A stretch of DNA of 39,800 nucleotides from Actinomyces sp. Its GTDB lineage: Bacteria; Actinomycetota; Actinomycetes; Actinomycetales; Actinomycetaceae. Positions 10,023-35,712 of this stretch are shown here, piece by piece (positions within the stretch are counted from its first letter, which is position 1; each line of letters begins with the position of its first letter). The position numbers and the translations under genes were made by a program. Below the pieces are notes generated by a model. That model ran no database searches, had not been told where the DNA came from, and saw only the letters and a program-made list of their open reading frames with translations. The stretch spans positions 1-39,800 of the forward strand of contig JAHACW010000019.1 of NCBI GenBank assembly GCA_018375675.1. The letters run 5' to 3'.

Positions 10023-10096
10023 TGGGCCCTACCGGGCTCGAACCGATGACCTTCTGGGTGTAAACCAGACGCTCTAGCCAACTGAGCTAAAGGCCC
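10023..10096 (-). tRNA. tRNA-Val (anticodon TAC)
   Basis: A 74-nt cloverleaf folds on the minus strand: acceptor GGGCCTT / AGGGCCC (one G-U pair), D stem GCTC / GAGC, anticodon stem TCTGG / CCAGA with loop TTTACAC (anticodon TAC, decoding GUA), T stem ATCGG / CCGGT with loop TTCGAGC, and discriminator A. The bases after the discriminator are CA, so the CCA tail is not encoded. Confidence 0.95.
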
Positions 10097-30777: not shown

Positions 30778-30861
30778 AAACCAGGCGGATGAGACGTTGC
30801 CTACTGGATTCTTCGTCGACGAGGCCGGGGAAGCTCCACACAACTACGCGCCCTTCGCCCG

Positions 30862-30870
30862 TTATCCACA
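30862..30870 (+). promoter_or_regulatory. TTATCCACA box (DnaA-box consensus), pair A box 1
   Basis: Exact match to the DnaA-box consensus in sense orientation to the M23-like gene. Its partner starts exactly 30 bp further on, with TTTCGCG between. The rest of the 408-nt gap between rpsB and the M23-like gene holds the rpsB leader and promoter and no gene. Confidence 0.7.
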
Positions 30871-30891
30871 AGGGAATTTCGCGCCGCGGCG

Positions 30892-30900
30892 TTATCCACA
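30892..30900 (+). promoter_or_regulatory. TTATCCACA box, pair A box 2
   Basis: Second exact DnaA-box match, 51 nt before the ATG of the M23-like gene. See the matching pair at 35674-35712. Confidence 0.7.
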
Positions 30901-30951
30901 ACCAACGCCGGGCGACTAGACCTGTGCGGCTTCTCCACTCACGCTGATGTT

Positions 30952-31482
30952 ATGACCTCTACAATCGCGCACCGCAGCCTCTTCAGAGTGCTTTCACTGA
31001 TCGTTACCTTCGTCGCGACACTGCTCATCATCGCCACACCGCCTGGCGCAGCAGCACCGCACCGCGAGCGGTGGCAGTGGCCAACAGGTGGGCCCGTGGC
31101 CGTCGTCGAAGGATTTTCCCCACCTGCCCACGACTGGTTGCCTGGACGTCGCGGCGTGACGTTGCAGTATCCGGCTCCCTCCCCGGTGTACGCGTGCGCA
31201 TCGGGGATCGTGACCGTTGCGGGGCCCATCGCCGGGCGGGGGGTCATTTCGATTCGTCACGACGTCGGTGGACGTGTCGTCTGGTCAACGTATCTGCCGG
31301 TGACGCCATCTGTCGCTGTTGGCGATCACGTCGAGAAAGGAGATGTTGTCGGTGTCGTTGAAGGGGCTTCACCCACGCTGCACTGGGGCGCGAAGACTGG
31401 CAGGCGTACGTACATCGATCCAATACGTCTGACGCTCGGACGCCCACGCCTTCTCCCCTGGGACGACGCGCCGGCTCGCTAG
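30952..31482 (+). CDS. Exported LytM/M23-like protein lacking metal ligands
   Basis: 176 residues. An N-terminal hydrophobic segment (about 14-34, VLSLIVTFVATLLIIATPPGAA) is a signal peptide or anchor, so the domain acts outside the membrane. The rest follows the M23 (LytM) fold: GRRGVTLQYPAPSPVYACASGIVTVAG, then GVISIRH, GDHVEKGDVVG and LHWG with a final YIDPIRL. In active M23 peptidases the first block is HxGxD and the last HxH; here these read RRGVT and TLHW, so three of four catalytic or zinc-binding residues appear changed. It is more likely a regulatory or scaffold LytM protein than an endopeptidase. No Shine-Dalgarno is seen before the ATG. Confidence 0.75.
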   Translation: MTSTIAHRSLFRVLSLIVTFVATLLIIATPPGAAAPHRERWQWPTGGPVAVVEGFSPPAHDWLPGRRGVTLQYPAPSPVYACASGIVTVAGPIAGRGVISIRHDVGGRVVWSTYLPVTPSVAVGDHVEKGDVVGVVEGASPTLHWGAKTGRRTYIDPIRLTLGRPRLLPWDDAPAR

Positions 31483-31548
31483 CCGCATGCGAACTGCTGA
31501 ACGCGGGCGGCGATCGCCGACGAGACGGCACGTCCCACGCCGCGGTTG

Positions 31549-32460
31549 CTAGGCGCGAGGGTGCGCCCGCTGATAGATCGCGCTCAGACGAGCGGTATCC
31601 ACGTGGGTGTAGCGCTGAGTAGTCGACAGCGACGAGTGACCGAGCATCTCCTGGACCGCGCGCAGATCAGCGCCTCCCTGCAGGAGATGCGTCGCAGTCG
31701 AGTGCCTCAGCCCGTGTGGCGCAATGTCATGCACGCCGGCACGCGCCGCCATCTTGTGCACCATCGATCGCACAACCCGCGGATCGATACGGCCACCCTT
31801 ATCGCCGAGGAAGAGAGCGTGCCCGCTGCGCTCCCCGGCTAACTGCGGACGGCCTCGAACCAGCCAATGGTCGAGGGCATCGGCAGCGGGAGGCCCGTAG
31901 GGAACCACACGCTCTTTGTTTCCTTTGCCGACGACCCGCACAGTGAGGGCCTCGCGGTTCAGCGATGAGATGTCGAGGGCGCAGACTTCGGAGACACGAA
32001 GGCCACACGCGTACGTGAGCTCGAGGATCGCCCAATTGCGAATCTGGGAGGCTCCTCCCGCCGCGGCTTCATCGCGCGCAGTATTGAGGAGCGCCCTCGC
32101 ATCGGATTCGTCGAGCGGAGACGGCAGACGCTGGTCGGCACGCGGGGACGACAGGAGCGCTGCGGGGTCGCTCGCCAGGATTCCTTCACGCATTGCCCAG
32201 GAGGTGAAGTTGCGAATCGCGGCGGTGTGGCGCGCGATTGTCGAGCGCGCTCCCCCGTCCGCGAGGGTGCGAGCAAGCCAGGAACGCACAGCGCGTTGCG
32301 TCAGCACGTCTCGGAGCTGCTCAGGGGTCGCATCGGTGCCGAGCGAGAGAAACTCCATGAGCGAGTGCAAGTCCCCGAGGTAGGCGGCAACGGTGTGGGG
32401 GCTCATCCGTCGCCCAAGGCGCAGGTACTCTTCCCAGCGCTCCCCCACATTGCGTGTCAT
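31549..32460 (-). CDS. xerC: Tyrosine recombinase XerC
   Basis: 303-residue recombinase that resolves chromosome dimers at dif together with XerD. The N-terminal core-binding domain (about 1-90) precedes a catalytic domain with all expected residues: Arg in GLRVSEVCALD (about 151-161), Lys in GKGNKER (about 177-183), HGLRHSTATHLLQ (about 247-259), GHSSLSTTQRYTHV (about 273-286) with the nucleophilic Tyr. It follows dprA by 9 nt. TAGGAT, which includes the dprA stop, ends 6 nt before the ATG, so an extra leaderless promoter is possible; the nearest SD-like GGGAGG is 18 nt away. Confidence 0.92.
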   Translation of the reverse strand: MTRNVGERWEEYLRLGRRMSPHTVAAYLGDLHSLMEFLSLGTDATPEQLRDVLTQRAVRSWLARTLADGGARSTIARHTAAIRNFTSWAMREGILASDPAALLSSPRADQRLPSPLDESDARALLNTARDEAAAGGASQIRNWAILELTYACGLRVSEVCALDISSLNREALTVRVVGKGNKERVVPYGPPAADALDHWLVRGRPQLAGERSGHALFLGDKGGRIDPRVVRSMVHKMAARAGVHDIAPHGLRHSTATHLLQGGADLRAVQEMLGHSSLSTTQRYTHVDTARLSAIYQRAHPRA

Positions 32461-32469
32461 ATCGATATC

Positions 32470-33630
32470 CTACGGTCTGCCTCCCCCTGTTCGCGTCCAG
32501 CCACGCGTCGATCCGGCCACTAGGCCCGCAACCGAAAGTTCCATGAGCGCATAGTTCACTTCTTCGCGTGACAGCGCCGCAGCGACACAGATCGCTTCGA
32601 CCGATGCGGGAGCACTCCTGGGAAGCGCCTCCCACACCCGACGCTGAGTCGGCTCCAGGGCATCAACCCCGTGATCGTCGTCGACTGGCATACCAAACAG
32701 AGGCTGGGCGGCGTCAACGCTCACCGGGCGCACAAGTTCGAGGGCGTCGCGCCCATCGCGGATGATCGTGGCTCCGTTGCGCGCAAGCTCGAGACACCCG
32801 ACCGACATCGGGGCGTCGACCGCGCCGGGGACTGCGCCTAGCTCACGCCCGTATTCCATGGCGCGACGCGCCGTCGCAAGGGCTCCGGACCGCGCCCCCG
32901 CCTCGACGACCACGGTAGCCCCGCTCCATGCGGCAATCAGGCGGTTACGGGTCAGGAAACGCCACTTCGCCGGCCTGGCGGTCGGCGCGACCTCGGAGAT
33001 GAGGGCCCCACCGCCATCGATGACAGCGCGAAAGTCGCCGCCGTGGCACGCAGGGTAGGGATTGCACACGCCGCCAGCGAGGATGCAGATCGTGCGCCCA
33101 CGCGCGGACAGGGCACCGCGGTGAGCCTCAATGTCAATGCCAATCGCACCGCCTGACACCACCGTCACCCCTGCCGCAGCGACGAATGCAGCCATGTTGC
33201 GCGCACACCTGTTTCCCGCGCCGGTGGACGCTCGAGCTCCCACGATAGACAGATGATGATCCGCACACGGAGCCTCGGGCAGGTCGCCGAGGAACCACAG
33301 CCCCATCGGCTCTTCCTCCCCCAGGCACGCGAGGTGGTCTGGCCAGCGTGGATCGCCAGGTGTCATGAATCCACCACCCGCATGAGCGACGCGCTTGAGT
33401 TCACTGTCAATATCGACCGAGAGAGCGCGCTGCCTCCACCGATTCCACTGCGTGTGCCAGTCAATCCTCGAATGACGGGCAAGCGACAACGGCGGTGCCG
33501 ACCAGCTTCCGATCAGCCACGCGCGCGCATCTCGATCCCCTAAAGCCTGACGTAGGACGCGTGCGCACGGATCAGCCGGCTCCGCGACGGCAGACCACCA
33601 AGCAGCCTCCCATAGTGCTGTGTCATTCAT
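32470..33630 (-). CDS. dprA: DNA-processing protein DprA (Smf)
   Basis: 386-residue protein that binds incoming single-stranded DNA and loads RecA during transformation. The Rossmann-like core has VGARASTGAG (about 131-140), the signature SGGAIGIDIEAHRGAL (about 161-176), LAGGVCNPYPACH and a FLTRNRLIAAWS segment (about 219-230). A C-terminal winged-helix (about 320-386) completes it, and the N-terminal 100 residues form a SAM-like extension. The ATG overlaps the comM stop by 8 nt (ATGAATGA). Grouped with comM and yraN in the typical actinobacterial order. Confidence 0.93.
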   Translation of the reverse strand: MNDTALWEAAWWSAVAEPADPCARVLRQALGDRDARAWLIGSWSAPPLSLARHSRIDWHTQWNRWRQRALSVDIDSELKRVAHAGGGFMTPGDPRWPDHLACLGEEEPMGLWFLGDLPEAPCADHHLSIVGARASTGAGNRCARNMAAFVAAAGVTVVSGGAIGIDIEAHRGALSARGRTICILAGGVCNPYPACHGGDFRAVIDGGGALISEVAPTARPAKWRFLTRNRLIAAWSGATVVVEAGARSGALATARRAMEYGRELGAVPGAVDAPMSVGCLELARNGATIIRDGRDALELVRPVSVDAAQPLFGMPVDDDHGVDALEPTQRRVWEALPRSAPASVEAICVAAALSREEVNYALMELSVAGLVAGSTRGWTRTGGGRP

Positions 33631-35170
33631 AGTGATCCGCTCCGTTCCGCAGCTGCTGCGCTGCAACAATGTGGTCAAAGGTCGGCCGAGGCGCGGCCTC
33701 AAGATCGGCGAGCGTCCACGCCAGGCGAAGCATCCGGTCGATCCCGCGCATGGACGAGTGACCGGAATCGACGAGCCGATCAAGTTGATGAATGAGCGAG
33801 GCATCGATGCCTGAGTGGTGGCGCAGCCACGCTCCCGGAAGTTGCGCGTTCATGGTCCACGGCGTGTCCTTAAGACGCGTGCGCGCCCTCGAGCGCGCCT
33901 CTATAACACGCTGGCGTATCGACGCCGAATCATGCCTTTGTGTCGACGCTAGGTCCGCCCGACTGGGGGTATGCACGTCGATGCGGATGTCCATTCGATC
34001 CAGCAACGGCCCAGACAATCGCGCGAGGTACCTGCGTCGATTCACCGACGAACATGTGCACCGCCGCCCTCCGTATCCGCCTCCGCACGGGCAGGGATTG
34101 GACGCCATCACCAGTTGGAATGCGGCAGGATAACACGCCTGAACGCCGGAGCGGTGCACATGGATGACACCTGATTCAAGGGGTTCACGCAGCGAGTCAA
34201 GGACCGAGGGAGCAAACTCGGCGGCCTCGTCGAGAAAAAGGATCCCTCCATGCGCCAGCGACGCTGCCCCAGGCACGAGCGTGCGCGTGCCACCACCGAT
34301 AAGGGCCGGCATGGTCACCGAGTGGTGCGGCGCTTGGAATGGGGGTCGCGTCATCAGCGATAGCGAGGAGGGCAACAGGCCCGCGACCGAATGCAACGAG
34401 GTAGTGACAAGAGCGGTGTCGGCGTCAAGATCTGGAAGTATCGTCGGGAGTCGGGACGCGAGCATCGTCTTGCCGGATCCAGGCTCTCCCAGAAGAAACA
34501 CGTGGTGCCCACCGGCGGCTGCAACTTCCATGGCGGCAATTGCCTCGGGCTGACCGCGCACGTCCGCCATGTCTGCAAGGGTCATATCGCCGTCGCGTTC
34601 CCCCTCGCAGCGGATGCCCATCCGCCCATGGAACGGGGCCTTCACAGCCTCTCCCCCCGCCCACGCAATCATGTCAGCCAAATGCGCGAAGTCCAGGACC
34701 TCAATGCCGCTCACCAGACGCGCCTCCTGGGCGCATGCCGACGGCACGATCACGCGGCGCACGCCCCGCGAACGCGCGGCGAGCACTGCCGGCAACACCC
34801 CGCGCACCGGCTGAATACTGCCATCCAACGCAAGCTCACCAACGAGGACGGCGTCTTCAAACGCCACCGGCGACACGAGGCCCGTGGCCAGAGCGATGGA
34901 CGCCGCGATCGAGAGGTCAAAAGCCGACCCCGACTTCGGAATGCCAGCAGGGGACAGATTCACGGTGATGCGTTGGTCCAACACGTCCAGGCCGCACGAC
35001 TCGAACGCAGCGCGCACCCGATCGCGGGCCTCGCGCACCGAGGTGTCGAGCAGGCCGACGAGAGTGAACGCTACAAGTCCCGACCCCGCGTATGTCTCCA
35101 CGTCAACCAGGTGCCCCTCGATCCCGACGATACTCATGGAATACGTGCGCGCAAGCCCCGGGCCTCTCAT
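33623..35170 (-). CDS. comM: YifB/ComM family AAA+ Mg-chelatase-like ATPase
   Basis: 515-residue hexameric helicase of the ComM (YifB) family, which promotes branch migration when incoming DNA is integrated. The N-terminal lon-protease-like fold (about 1-170) precedes the AAA+ module with Walker A GEPGSGKTMLA (about 216-226) and Walker B GGILFLDEAAEF (about 286-297), a C-terminal zinc-like cluster CPCGGGYGGRRCTC (about 342-355) and a helical lid. The ATG overlaps the yraN stop by 4 nt (ATGA). Positions are counted from MRGPGLARTY. Confidence 0.92.
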   Translation of the reverse strand: MRGPGLARTYSMSIVGIEGHLVDVETYAGSGLVAFTLVGLLDTSVREARDRVRAAFESCGLDVLDQRITVNLSPAGIPKSGSAFDLSIAASIALATGLVSPVAFEDAVLVGELALDGSIQPVRGVLPAVLAARSRGVRRVIVPSACAQEARLVSGIEVLDFAHLADMIAWAGGEAVKAPFHGRMGIRCEGERDGDMTLADMADVRGQPEAIAAMEVAAAGGHHVFLLGEPGSGKTMLASRLPTILPDLDADTALVTTSLHSVAGLLPSSLSLMTRPPFQAPHHSVTMPALIGGGTRTLVPGAASLAHGGILFLDEAAEFAPSVLDSLREPLESGVIHVHRSGVQACYPAAFQLVMASNPCPCGGGYGGRRCTCSSVNRRRYLARLSGPLLDRMDIRIDVHTPSRADLASTQRHDSASIRQRVIEARSRARTRLKDTPWTMNAQLPGAWLRHHSGIDASLIHQLDRLVDSGHSSMRGIDRMLRLAWTLADLEAAPRPTFDHIVAAQQLRNGADHYE

Positions 35171-35607
35171 TGCACACCCCGCAACCACACGAGCTGTGCC
35201 CCCAGAGTGCGAAGATCCACGACCTCGTCCATGGACCCTGGCCACGATTCCAGCATCCGCGCGTCCACCGTGATGGCGACGACGTCGATACGCACACGCG
35301 TACCAAGGTGACCGTGGGCCCTGCACCACGCACCCGTCAGCGCTCGAAGCCGCGCCACCTTGCGATGGTCGACCGATGCAAGCGCGCTCCCCTTTTGGCG
35401 CCCCACCCTGGTACGGACCTCGACGATGACGGTCCACGAACGCGACGGATCGGTCTCGTCGCGCGCGATGATATCGAGCTCGCCCCGACGACCATCACGC
35501 CAGTTGGTGTCGAGAATGCGCAGACCATTTTCTCCCAGCACCAGCCGGGCGGTATATTCGCCCGCAGCACCTATGGCCCGACGATCGGGCCGTGTTAAGC
35601 ATCCCAT
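35167..35607 (-). CDS. YraN/UPF0102 family endonuclease-like protein
   Basis: 146-residue protein of the YraN family, with a restriction-endonuclease-like core. GAAGEYTARLVLGENG (about 12-27), RGELDIIARD (about 41-50, catalytic-type Asp in the E/D-D-ExK order) and the VEVRTR strand (about 62-67, E...K replaced by E...R) are visible. The exact biochemical role is not established. It has an 11-nt Shine-Dalgarno perfectly complementary to the 16S 3' end. A GTG directly before the ATG could also be the start. It heads the yraN-comM-dprA-xerC operon, behind a pair of TTATCCACA boxes. Confidence 0.87.
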   Translation of the reverse strand: MGCLTRPDRRAIGAAGEYTARLVLGENGLRILDTNWRDGRRGELDIIARDETDPSRSWTVIVEVRTRVGRQKGSALASVDHRKVARLRALTGAWCRAHGHLGTRVRIDVVAITVDARMLESWPGSMDEVVDLRTLGAQLVWLRGVQ

Positions 35608-35610
35608 CAC

Positions 35611-35621
35611 GGATCACCTCC
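35611..35621 (-). promoter_or_regulatory. Exceptionally long Shine-Dalgarno for yraN
   Basis: Minus strand GGAGGTGATCC is perfectly complementary to GGAUCACCUCC at the 3' end of 16S rRNA over 11 bases. GGAGG is 6 nt before the GTG and 9 nt before the ATG, consistent with either start. Confidence 0.75.
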
Positions 35622-35673
35622 GCCCCCACAGTGCGCCCGAGGCCATCGGGCACACAATGCGAAAACCGCCCCC

Positions 35674-35682
35674 TGTGGATAG
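35674..35682 (-). promoter_or_regulatory. TTATCCACA-like box, pair B box 2
   Basis: Minus strand CTATCCACA, one mismatch to the DnaA-box consensus, 66 nt before the yraN ATG. It is exactly 30 bp from its partner and shows the same orientation to the gene as pair A. Confidence 0.6.
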
Positions 35683-35703
35683 GGAGCGGTTCGCGAAAAG
35701 GCC

Positions 35704-35712
35704 TGTGGATAA
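35704..35712 (-). promoter_or_regulatory. TTATCCACA box, pair B box 1
   Basis: Exact DnaA-box consensus on the minus strand. Between it and box 2 lies TTTTCGCG, at almost the same place as TTTCGCG in pair A. Confidence 0.7.

Follow-up and report, generated by a model that had tools for sequence, protein, structure and literature searches.

The window analysed here, a 39,800-nt stretch of Actinomyces sp. DNA (contig JAHACW010000019.1, positions 1 to 39,800), carries two pairs of short direct repeats, one upstream of a gene of the M23 peptidase family and the other upstream of a yraN-comM-dprA-xerC operon, and in our reading these paired boxes are very probably the operator of an actinobacterial natural-competence regulon. 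One and the same cis-element stands before several unlinked transformation genes (comEA-comEC, yraN-comM-dprA-xerC, ssb and a Tad pilin unit) in Schaalia sp. ORNL0103 (G001), the nearest genome compared, with 22% of sampled 31-mers in common with the window, and in its relatives. The motif, its spacing, orientation and place, its target genes and its conservation can be read from the genomes themselves and are laid out below.

At the M23 promoter, TTATCCACA occurs on the plus strand at 30862..30870 and again, exactly 30 bp on, at 30892..30900. At the yraN promoter, on the minus strand, box 1 is TTATCCACA (35704..35712) and box 2, 30 bp away, is CTATCCACA (35674..35682). The ATG of the M23 gene (30952) lies 51 nt and that of yraN (35607) 66 nt past box 2. 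Positions, spacing, aim at the two genes and distances to their starts are thus as described in the original prediction, which was made from this sequence alone.

Paired boxes precede competence genes in the Schaalia odontolytica clade

In order to see where else such pairs occur, and to tabulate the downstream genes as the original prediction had proposed, we searched whole genomes for the strict 30-bp form. The 2.4-Mb genome of G001 holds 16 TTATCCACA-N21-TTATCCACA pairs at 14 places (at most three mismatches), while the reversed pattern gives none on the forward and none on the reverse strand. With at most two mismatches, nine of 35 genus genomes have 11-14 pairs each (G001, G002, G006, G007, G014, G021, G022, G024 and G025), G033 has six and the remainder 0-4, the reversed pattern being absent from all 35; the view that the architecture did not arise by chance is borne out. 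The strict TTATCCACA pair is not a feature of the whole family, since at one mismatch or fewer it occurs in only 19 of the 213 genomes of the family, and more than two are found only in the odontolytica clade and G033.

The genes behind the pairs form a coherent competence set. When downstream DNA was matched to G001 proteins, 97 of 99 pairs from ten genomes preceded one of 16 gene families, mostly of competence, pilus and recombination genes, which include comEA-comEC, yraN-comM-dprA-xerC, a competence-type ssb, the Tad pilus, an EccC-like ATPase, WXG100, tag, M23 and DUF559-like genes (overlapping pairs in triple arrays were counted apart, and the set omits G006 and G025, with 14 and 13 pairs). 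Placement is not random either, as a single pair of the 99 lies within a predicted gene. Mismatches in these pairs fall at positions 1-3, with position 5 affected in four further cases and position 6 in one. Seven clade genomes were examined for targets (G001, G007, G024, G021, G014, G022 and G002). All seven have a pair ahead of yraN, comEA, the EccC-like gene, the pilin/TadE unit and a DUF559-like gene; six have one ahead of ssb, WXG100, a 184-aa gene, a unit of 106-aa and 563-aa genes, and tag; and five have one ahead of M23, the TPR gene and another DUF559-like gene. Beyond the window, the M23 pair is present in G001, G007, G014, G021 and G024. The two window promoters share a regulatory element, as had been supposed, and in relatives it recurs before a competence gene set.

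Domain searches (Pfam/NCBIfam) agree with these assignments: SLBB and HHH in comEA, Competence in comEC, SSB, Adenine_glyco, WXG100, T2SSE, T2SSF, DUF4244 and Tad pilus genes. WXG100 passes its cut-offs (TIGR03930, 57.5 vs 44.85; PF06013, 60.3 vs 27.3). The EccC-like protein belongs to FtsK/SpoIIIE and matches EccC/EssC models with E values of 5.6e-52 and 2.6e-53, below the curated cut-offs. Three diverged DUF559/MTES_1575-like proteins (L047, L057 and L058) are each encoded behind a box pair in G001, spaced 29 bp at L058, and only the L058 protein passes the DUF559 Pfam cut-off, the other two matching weakly. Clusters of a palindromic TATCCRGATAGG-type repeat flank the DUF559-like regulon gene in L047 (3720-3850 and 5160-5270) and were also seen in L015 and L029. 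Separately, G001 carries three same-strand CTATCCACA boxes at 19-bp spacing (C1:420823, 420842 and 420861), unlike the 30-bp pairs.

The original prediction had also drawn attention to TTTCGCG inside the pairs and had considered a composite box-TTTCGCG-box as the site of a regulator. Both window sites contain this word, yet it is no common core: it occurs in 4 of the 99 pairs, every one at M23 or yraN. It is kept at M23 of G006, G007 and G025 and at yraN of G014, and changed or missing at M23 of G024, G014 and G021 and at yraN of G006, G007, G025, G024, G021 and G022. With its core conserved in some relatives only, the composite site was abandoned.

Geometry of the promoters and genes of the window

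Aligned without gaps, 81 of the 99 pairs (at most two mismatches; G007, G018 and G019 omitted) gave (T)TATCCACAGG twice, 30 bp apart, followed by a CTTGA-like -35 16 bp past box 2 and, about 17 bp beyond it, by -10-like words (TAGCGT, GATCGT etc.) that are not uniform. From this alignment we place putative -35 elements at 30916..30921 (CTAGAC, plus strand) for M23 and at 35653..35658 (ATTGTG, minus strand) for yraN.

For the 77 pairs with a called start, the distance from box 2 is 51-52 nt (n = 13), 66 nt (n = 4), 85-94 nt (n = 37) or lies elsewhere (n = 23); the starts come from a simple caller and are absent or wrong for some genes, and for several of the last 23 pairs a later start was picked. 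The 51-52 nt class, which contains the EccC-like gene, tag, comEA in G002 and some DUF559-like genes, would be leaderless; the 66 nt class is yraN, and the 85-94 nt class comprises ssb, WXG100, the pilin, the TPR gene and others. In the ssb leaders of several Schaalia genomes (L257-L267), past the promoter, lies a similar GGTTTCCTGGA...CCGG stretch, and an Rfam search of two ssb leaders (L257 and L267) gave no match at the gathering threshold.

Binding of the boxes by a protein, its action as an activator and not as a repressor, the points at which transcription begins and a joint rise of the genes are our inferences. In the mechanism we propose, a sequence-specific protein would bind (TTA)TCCACAGG in direct repeats, two or at times three of them. 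The centres of the bound boxes would lie near -56 and -86 relative to the transcription start, an activator-like placement, and sigma70-type promoters of genes for DNA uptake, single-stranded DNA handling, recombination and the Flp/Tad pilus would be switched on together. The set of the Schaalia odontolytica clade would also take in the EccC-like type VII ATPase, WXG100, DUF559-like, tag and M23 genes.

Within the window, the M23 gene (30952..31482, plus strand; PF01551) would have a leaderless message, and the pair scan found a weak third box, AGCTCCACA (AGCTCCACACA), on the same strand at 30832..30842, 30 bp 5' of box 1; triple 30-bp arrays occur in G001 also at ssb and at the 184-aa gene. 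The operon on the minus strand consists of yraN (UPF0102; 35167..35607, PF02021), a comM-like gene (Mg_chelatase/ChlI; 33623..35137, PF01078 and PF13541), dprA (32470..33630, PF02481), the starts of these three having been chosen in this analysis, and a xerC-like tyrosine recombinase gene (31549..32460, PF00589 and PF02899). By Pfam, the genes around the boxes are rpsB, M23, xerC, dprA, comM, yraN, DUF2469 and rnhB. Elsewhere in the window, a class A RNase P RNA (911-1274) and a tRNA (10023-10096) are encoded on the minus strand.

A looser pair in the genus and the order

The widespread feature is a looser pair of TCCACAGG boxes and not the strict 30-bp form. In the genus we compared upstream regions from the best 30 of 33 genomes with comEA and the best 30 of 34 with ssb; the pair found in 23 of the 30 comEA and 29 of the 30 ssb upstreams, at spacings of 26-31 bp, was unmatched by any of 200 shuffles, the exceptions being comEA of G019, G012, G034, G029, G004, G026 and G015, and ssb of G026. 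Loss of boxes does not mean loss of competence genes, as 33 of the 35 genus genomes have comEA and 34 of the 35 have a competence-type ssb match, some of these ssb matches possibly being housekeeping SSB.

Scans across the order (spacings 20-60, score cut-off 35) gave the same picture. A score of at least 35 is reached by 38 of 90 comEA upstreams (4 antisense, 0 reversed); 27 of the pairs have a spacing of 26-31 bp, and 8 have one of 37-41 bp. The set covers 90 of 116 genomes with comEA, namely 30 returned loci (16 reach 35) and 60 chosen for family spread (22 reach 35). All seven f4 genomes have the comEA pair, and f2, f68, f70 and f72 together have it in 6 of 26, one at 26-31 bp. For ssb, 28 of 50 upstreams reach the cut-off (4 antisense, 0 reversed), 23 of them at 27-31 bp; these 50, out of 112 genomes, combine 30 returned loci with 20 chosen mostly for a comEA pair (15 of the 20 reach 35). 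The yraN upstreams came from 30 genomes, most of them selected on the strength of a pair at comEA or ssb, and 21 score at least 35 (1 antisense, 0 reversed), 18 at 27-30 bp.

Farther afield, the exact 30-bp pair is found at Tad genes of five Propionibacteriaceae metagenome-assembled genomes, at ssb of one of those five, and at ssb of one Streptosporangiaceae metagenome-assembled genome. These come from 80 exact-pair loci listed out of 104 stretches, 15 of which are Schaalia by title or protein identity. Three loci (L124, L140 and L171), from records that bear the titles Sanguibacter keddieii 250_SKED and Xylanimonas cellulosilytica 352_XCEL, carry genes whose products share 84-97% identity with proteins of Schaalia sp. 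ORNL0103, and the records look mislabelled.

Box spacing as a property of the genome

Spacing tends to agree among promoters of one genome. At comEA, ssb and yraN it is 29/29/29 in four f4 genomes (G542, G295, G566 and G554), 30/30/30 in G517 and 36/36/37 in G527 (scores 33-35), while G504 has 50 at both comEA and yraN, and the upstream pair scan found no ssb pair in that genome. Among pairs scoring at least 33, exact agreement is seen in 13 of 29 comEA-ssb, 13 of 24 comEA-yraN and 14 of 23 ssb-yraN comparisons, against permutation means of 4.6, 4.6 and 5.4 (p <= 0.0001 for all three); at a score of at least 35 the counts are 10 of 20, 9 of 17 and 11 of 17 (p 0.0004, 0.0006 and 0.0002). In the genus outside the clade, agreement is 9 of 13 with 2.9 expected by permutation. 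In G547 and G559 (f71) the comEA spacing is 39 and that of both ssb and yraN is 28, a difference of about one turn of the helix, and in G196, G095, G508 and G483 the spacing disagrees at one promoter or more. We take the agreement within genomes as a sign of a protein pair that measures distance, which the spacings suggest.

Several points weigh against the reading of the pairs as a competence operator. Strict pairs are few in genus members outside the clade, and the genus upstream scan found no comEA pair in G015, G004, G026 and G029. Many genomes with both comEA and ssb are without a recognisable pair: 52 of the 90 comEA upstreams in the order score below 35, and comEA pairs in f5, f73, f74 and f79 number 0 of 21. 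The yraN set consists wholly, and the ssb set partly, of genomes chosen mostly for pairs, the 30 unchosen ssb loci reaching 35 in 13 cases. At 57 of 65 non-Schaalia exact-pair loci no regulon protein is matched; a further locus, with a weak xerC match, was not counted as matching. The spacing permutation test ignores relatedness. Finally, the type VII link comes from one clade, with an EccC match under curated cut-offs.

DnaA or a dedicated activator as the possible binding protein

Two candidates for the binding protein are about equally likely, since the boxes at oriC share the core of the competence boxes. The binder is quite possibly a dedicated, as yet undescribed competence activator, with two DNA-binding units on TCCACAGG repeats at a set distance and a likeness to DnaA that arose by convergence. 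This would fit a spacing that is near-constant across unlinked promoters in one genome and shifts between genomes, sometimes by about a helical turn, as well as the activator-like place of the boxes upstream of the -35. It is also favoured by the GG extension of the competence boxes: in the clade, GG at positions 10-11 is found in 151 of 178 competence boxes vs 8 of 36 oriC boxes (Fisher p 4e-13). On the other hand, the oriC boxes have most of the motif in common with the competence boxes, and no regulator gene was seen among the target proteins, to which the scan was confined; the TPR protein has a weak RNPP_C match, below the cut-off.

DnaA itself is about as likely to be the binder, two protomers on paired boxes activating the competence regulon and tying uptake to the DnaA-ATP level or to replication stress. 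The box 9-mer (a TTATNCACA-type word) equals the DnaA-box consensus, and boxes in the regions behind dnaA, presumably oriC, agree with it in the TCCACA core and are comparably variable at positions 1-2, where TT is found in 56 of 153 boxes at oriC and in 20 of 75 at competence promoters. Within the clade, G10 is common to both sets (34 of 36 oriC and 161 of 178 competence boxes), but G11 marks the competence boxes (158 of 178 vs 10 of 36). What sets the boxes before competence genes apart from known DnaA boxes and DnaA-regulated promoters is that they stand in head-to-tail pairs at a set distance and carry the GG extension. DnaA_C is, moreover, highly conserved, yet pair spacing varies, being mostly 27 to 30, 36-37 in G527 and 50 in G504. 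A DnaA paralogue as regulator was rejected, as there is no second DnaA_C protein: 34 of the 35 genomes of the genus and 119 of 119 order genomes have a single match each (the genus scan found no match in G013). Searches of the open-access literature aimed at DnaA and competence listed no paper on such a paired-box layout.

One variant of the box was considered separately. In 28 competence upstreams of f73, f74 and G527 we counted 14 TCCCCAGG vs 2 TCCACAGG, with none of either in antisense. In f74, TCCCCAGG occurs at 4 of 8 comEA and 1 of 8 ssb upstreams and nowhere at oriC in eight genomes, which speaks against DnaA. Across families, however, it is over-represented at oriC (15 in 69 genomes vs about 2.3 expected; 4 vs 0.31 in f73 and 2 vs 0.04 in G527), as would suit DnaA. 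TCCCCAGG was therefore dropped as proof against DnaA and, being enriched at oriC as well, decides nothing on this question.

Genetic work on Micrococcus luteus bears on the choice indirectly. A 2019 paper describes two low-transformation mutants linked to amino-acid auxotrophy, in two DNA-binding proteins whose loss cuts transformation by that route (PMC6667448). If essential, DnaA would be missing from such a mutant library, which would be compatible with its being the regulator. More tentatively, DnaA might be the direct competence activator across the order, the paired boxes, at a distance particular to each genome, coupling uptake, single-stranded DNA protection, recombination and the type VII-like module of oral Schaalia to the state of replication. 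The original prediction had proposed such a link. The identity of the 9-mer, the TCCACA core at oriC and the G that follows it speak for it, but the split at G11 and the genome-specific spacing leave the tie to the replication cycle hypothetical.

It is very improbable that the pairs serve to titrate DnaA, or as origin-like clusters, and play no part in transcription. They do consist of exact DnaA-box words, and 19 of the 28 exact TTATCCACA in G001 sit in 29- or 30-bp pairs; but titration needs no such geometry, and the pairs aim at gene starts, keep a -35-like hexamer at a set distance and precede a coherent gene set. An origin by chance, or through the spread of a repeat with a mobile element, can be set aside almost entirely: G002 has two copies each of the comEA and ssb promoter pairs (C7:116603/119843 and 208448/216457), possibly an assembly effect, but the controls gave 0 and, because the 21 bp between boxes vary among promoters while the boxes stay constant, the shared boxes are not a copied block.

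Comparison with known competence systems

The operator that we propose has partial counterparts elsewhere. The ComK box (K-box) of Bacillus subtilis is built of AT-box half-sites, and it resembles the present element in having two half-sites at set helical spacings before competence genes, with one activator serving several. The boxes here are TCCACAGG with no A/T runs, and a ComK-type site was rejected. M. luteus, the actinobacterial model, is reported to be without a ComK homologue (PMC4322843, PMC6667448). The streptococcal ComX (SigX) element is likewise one short conserved element before many competence genes (PMC8467076). That element is read by a sigma factor, whereas the paired boxes here are separate from, and upstream of, what would be an ordinary promoter of the -35/-10 type with a 17-bp spacer, and a ComX-type element was discarded.

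The target set resembles the Flp/Tad-pilus transformation genes of M. luteus (PMC4322843), overlapping in comEA-comEC, dprA and Tad/Flp pili, with the type VII-like module in addition; in their accessible text, the M. luteus papers give no master regulator or promoter motif (PMC4322843, PMC8467076, PMC12849477, PMC6667448). According to the 2026 paper, the upstream signal or regulatory cascade has yet to be identified (PMC12849477), and in the 2019 paper the terms promoter motif and binding site are absent (PMC6667448). In the open-access literature, to which our survey was confined, the searches listed no described competence motif or master regulator for Actinomycetota; nor did we find a regulon of this layout there, in keeping with the original prediction. 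Among the matches listed in a literature search pairing TCCACAGG with competence, none was on actinobacterial competence by title.

In Vibrio cholerae, competence is reportedly coupled to killing, the type VI secretion system being linked with DNA uptake. The likeness lies in secretion-system genes placed with DNA-uptake genes; the difference is that here they encode an EccC-like ATPase and a WXG100 protein in an actinobacterium.

Implications for competence in Actinomycetota

Competence control in Actinomycetota is largely unknown, according to two papers (PMC12849477, PMC8467076). A conserved element before comEA, ssb, yraN-comM-dprA and Tad genes can serve as bait for the regulator, as a means of listing the regulon in further genomes and as a target for reporter mutations; a comEA-lacZ reporter is already available in M. 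luteus (PMC8467076). Should DnaA bind it, DNA uptake would be directly wired to replication, and the type VII-like genes in the set would suggest that secretion is coupled with DNA uptake, as with the type VI system of Vibrio. Altogether, judged by its sequence, the element recurs before DNA-uptake genes of many actinobacteria and is a handle for finding their competence switch.

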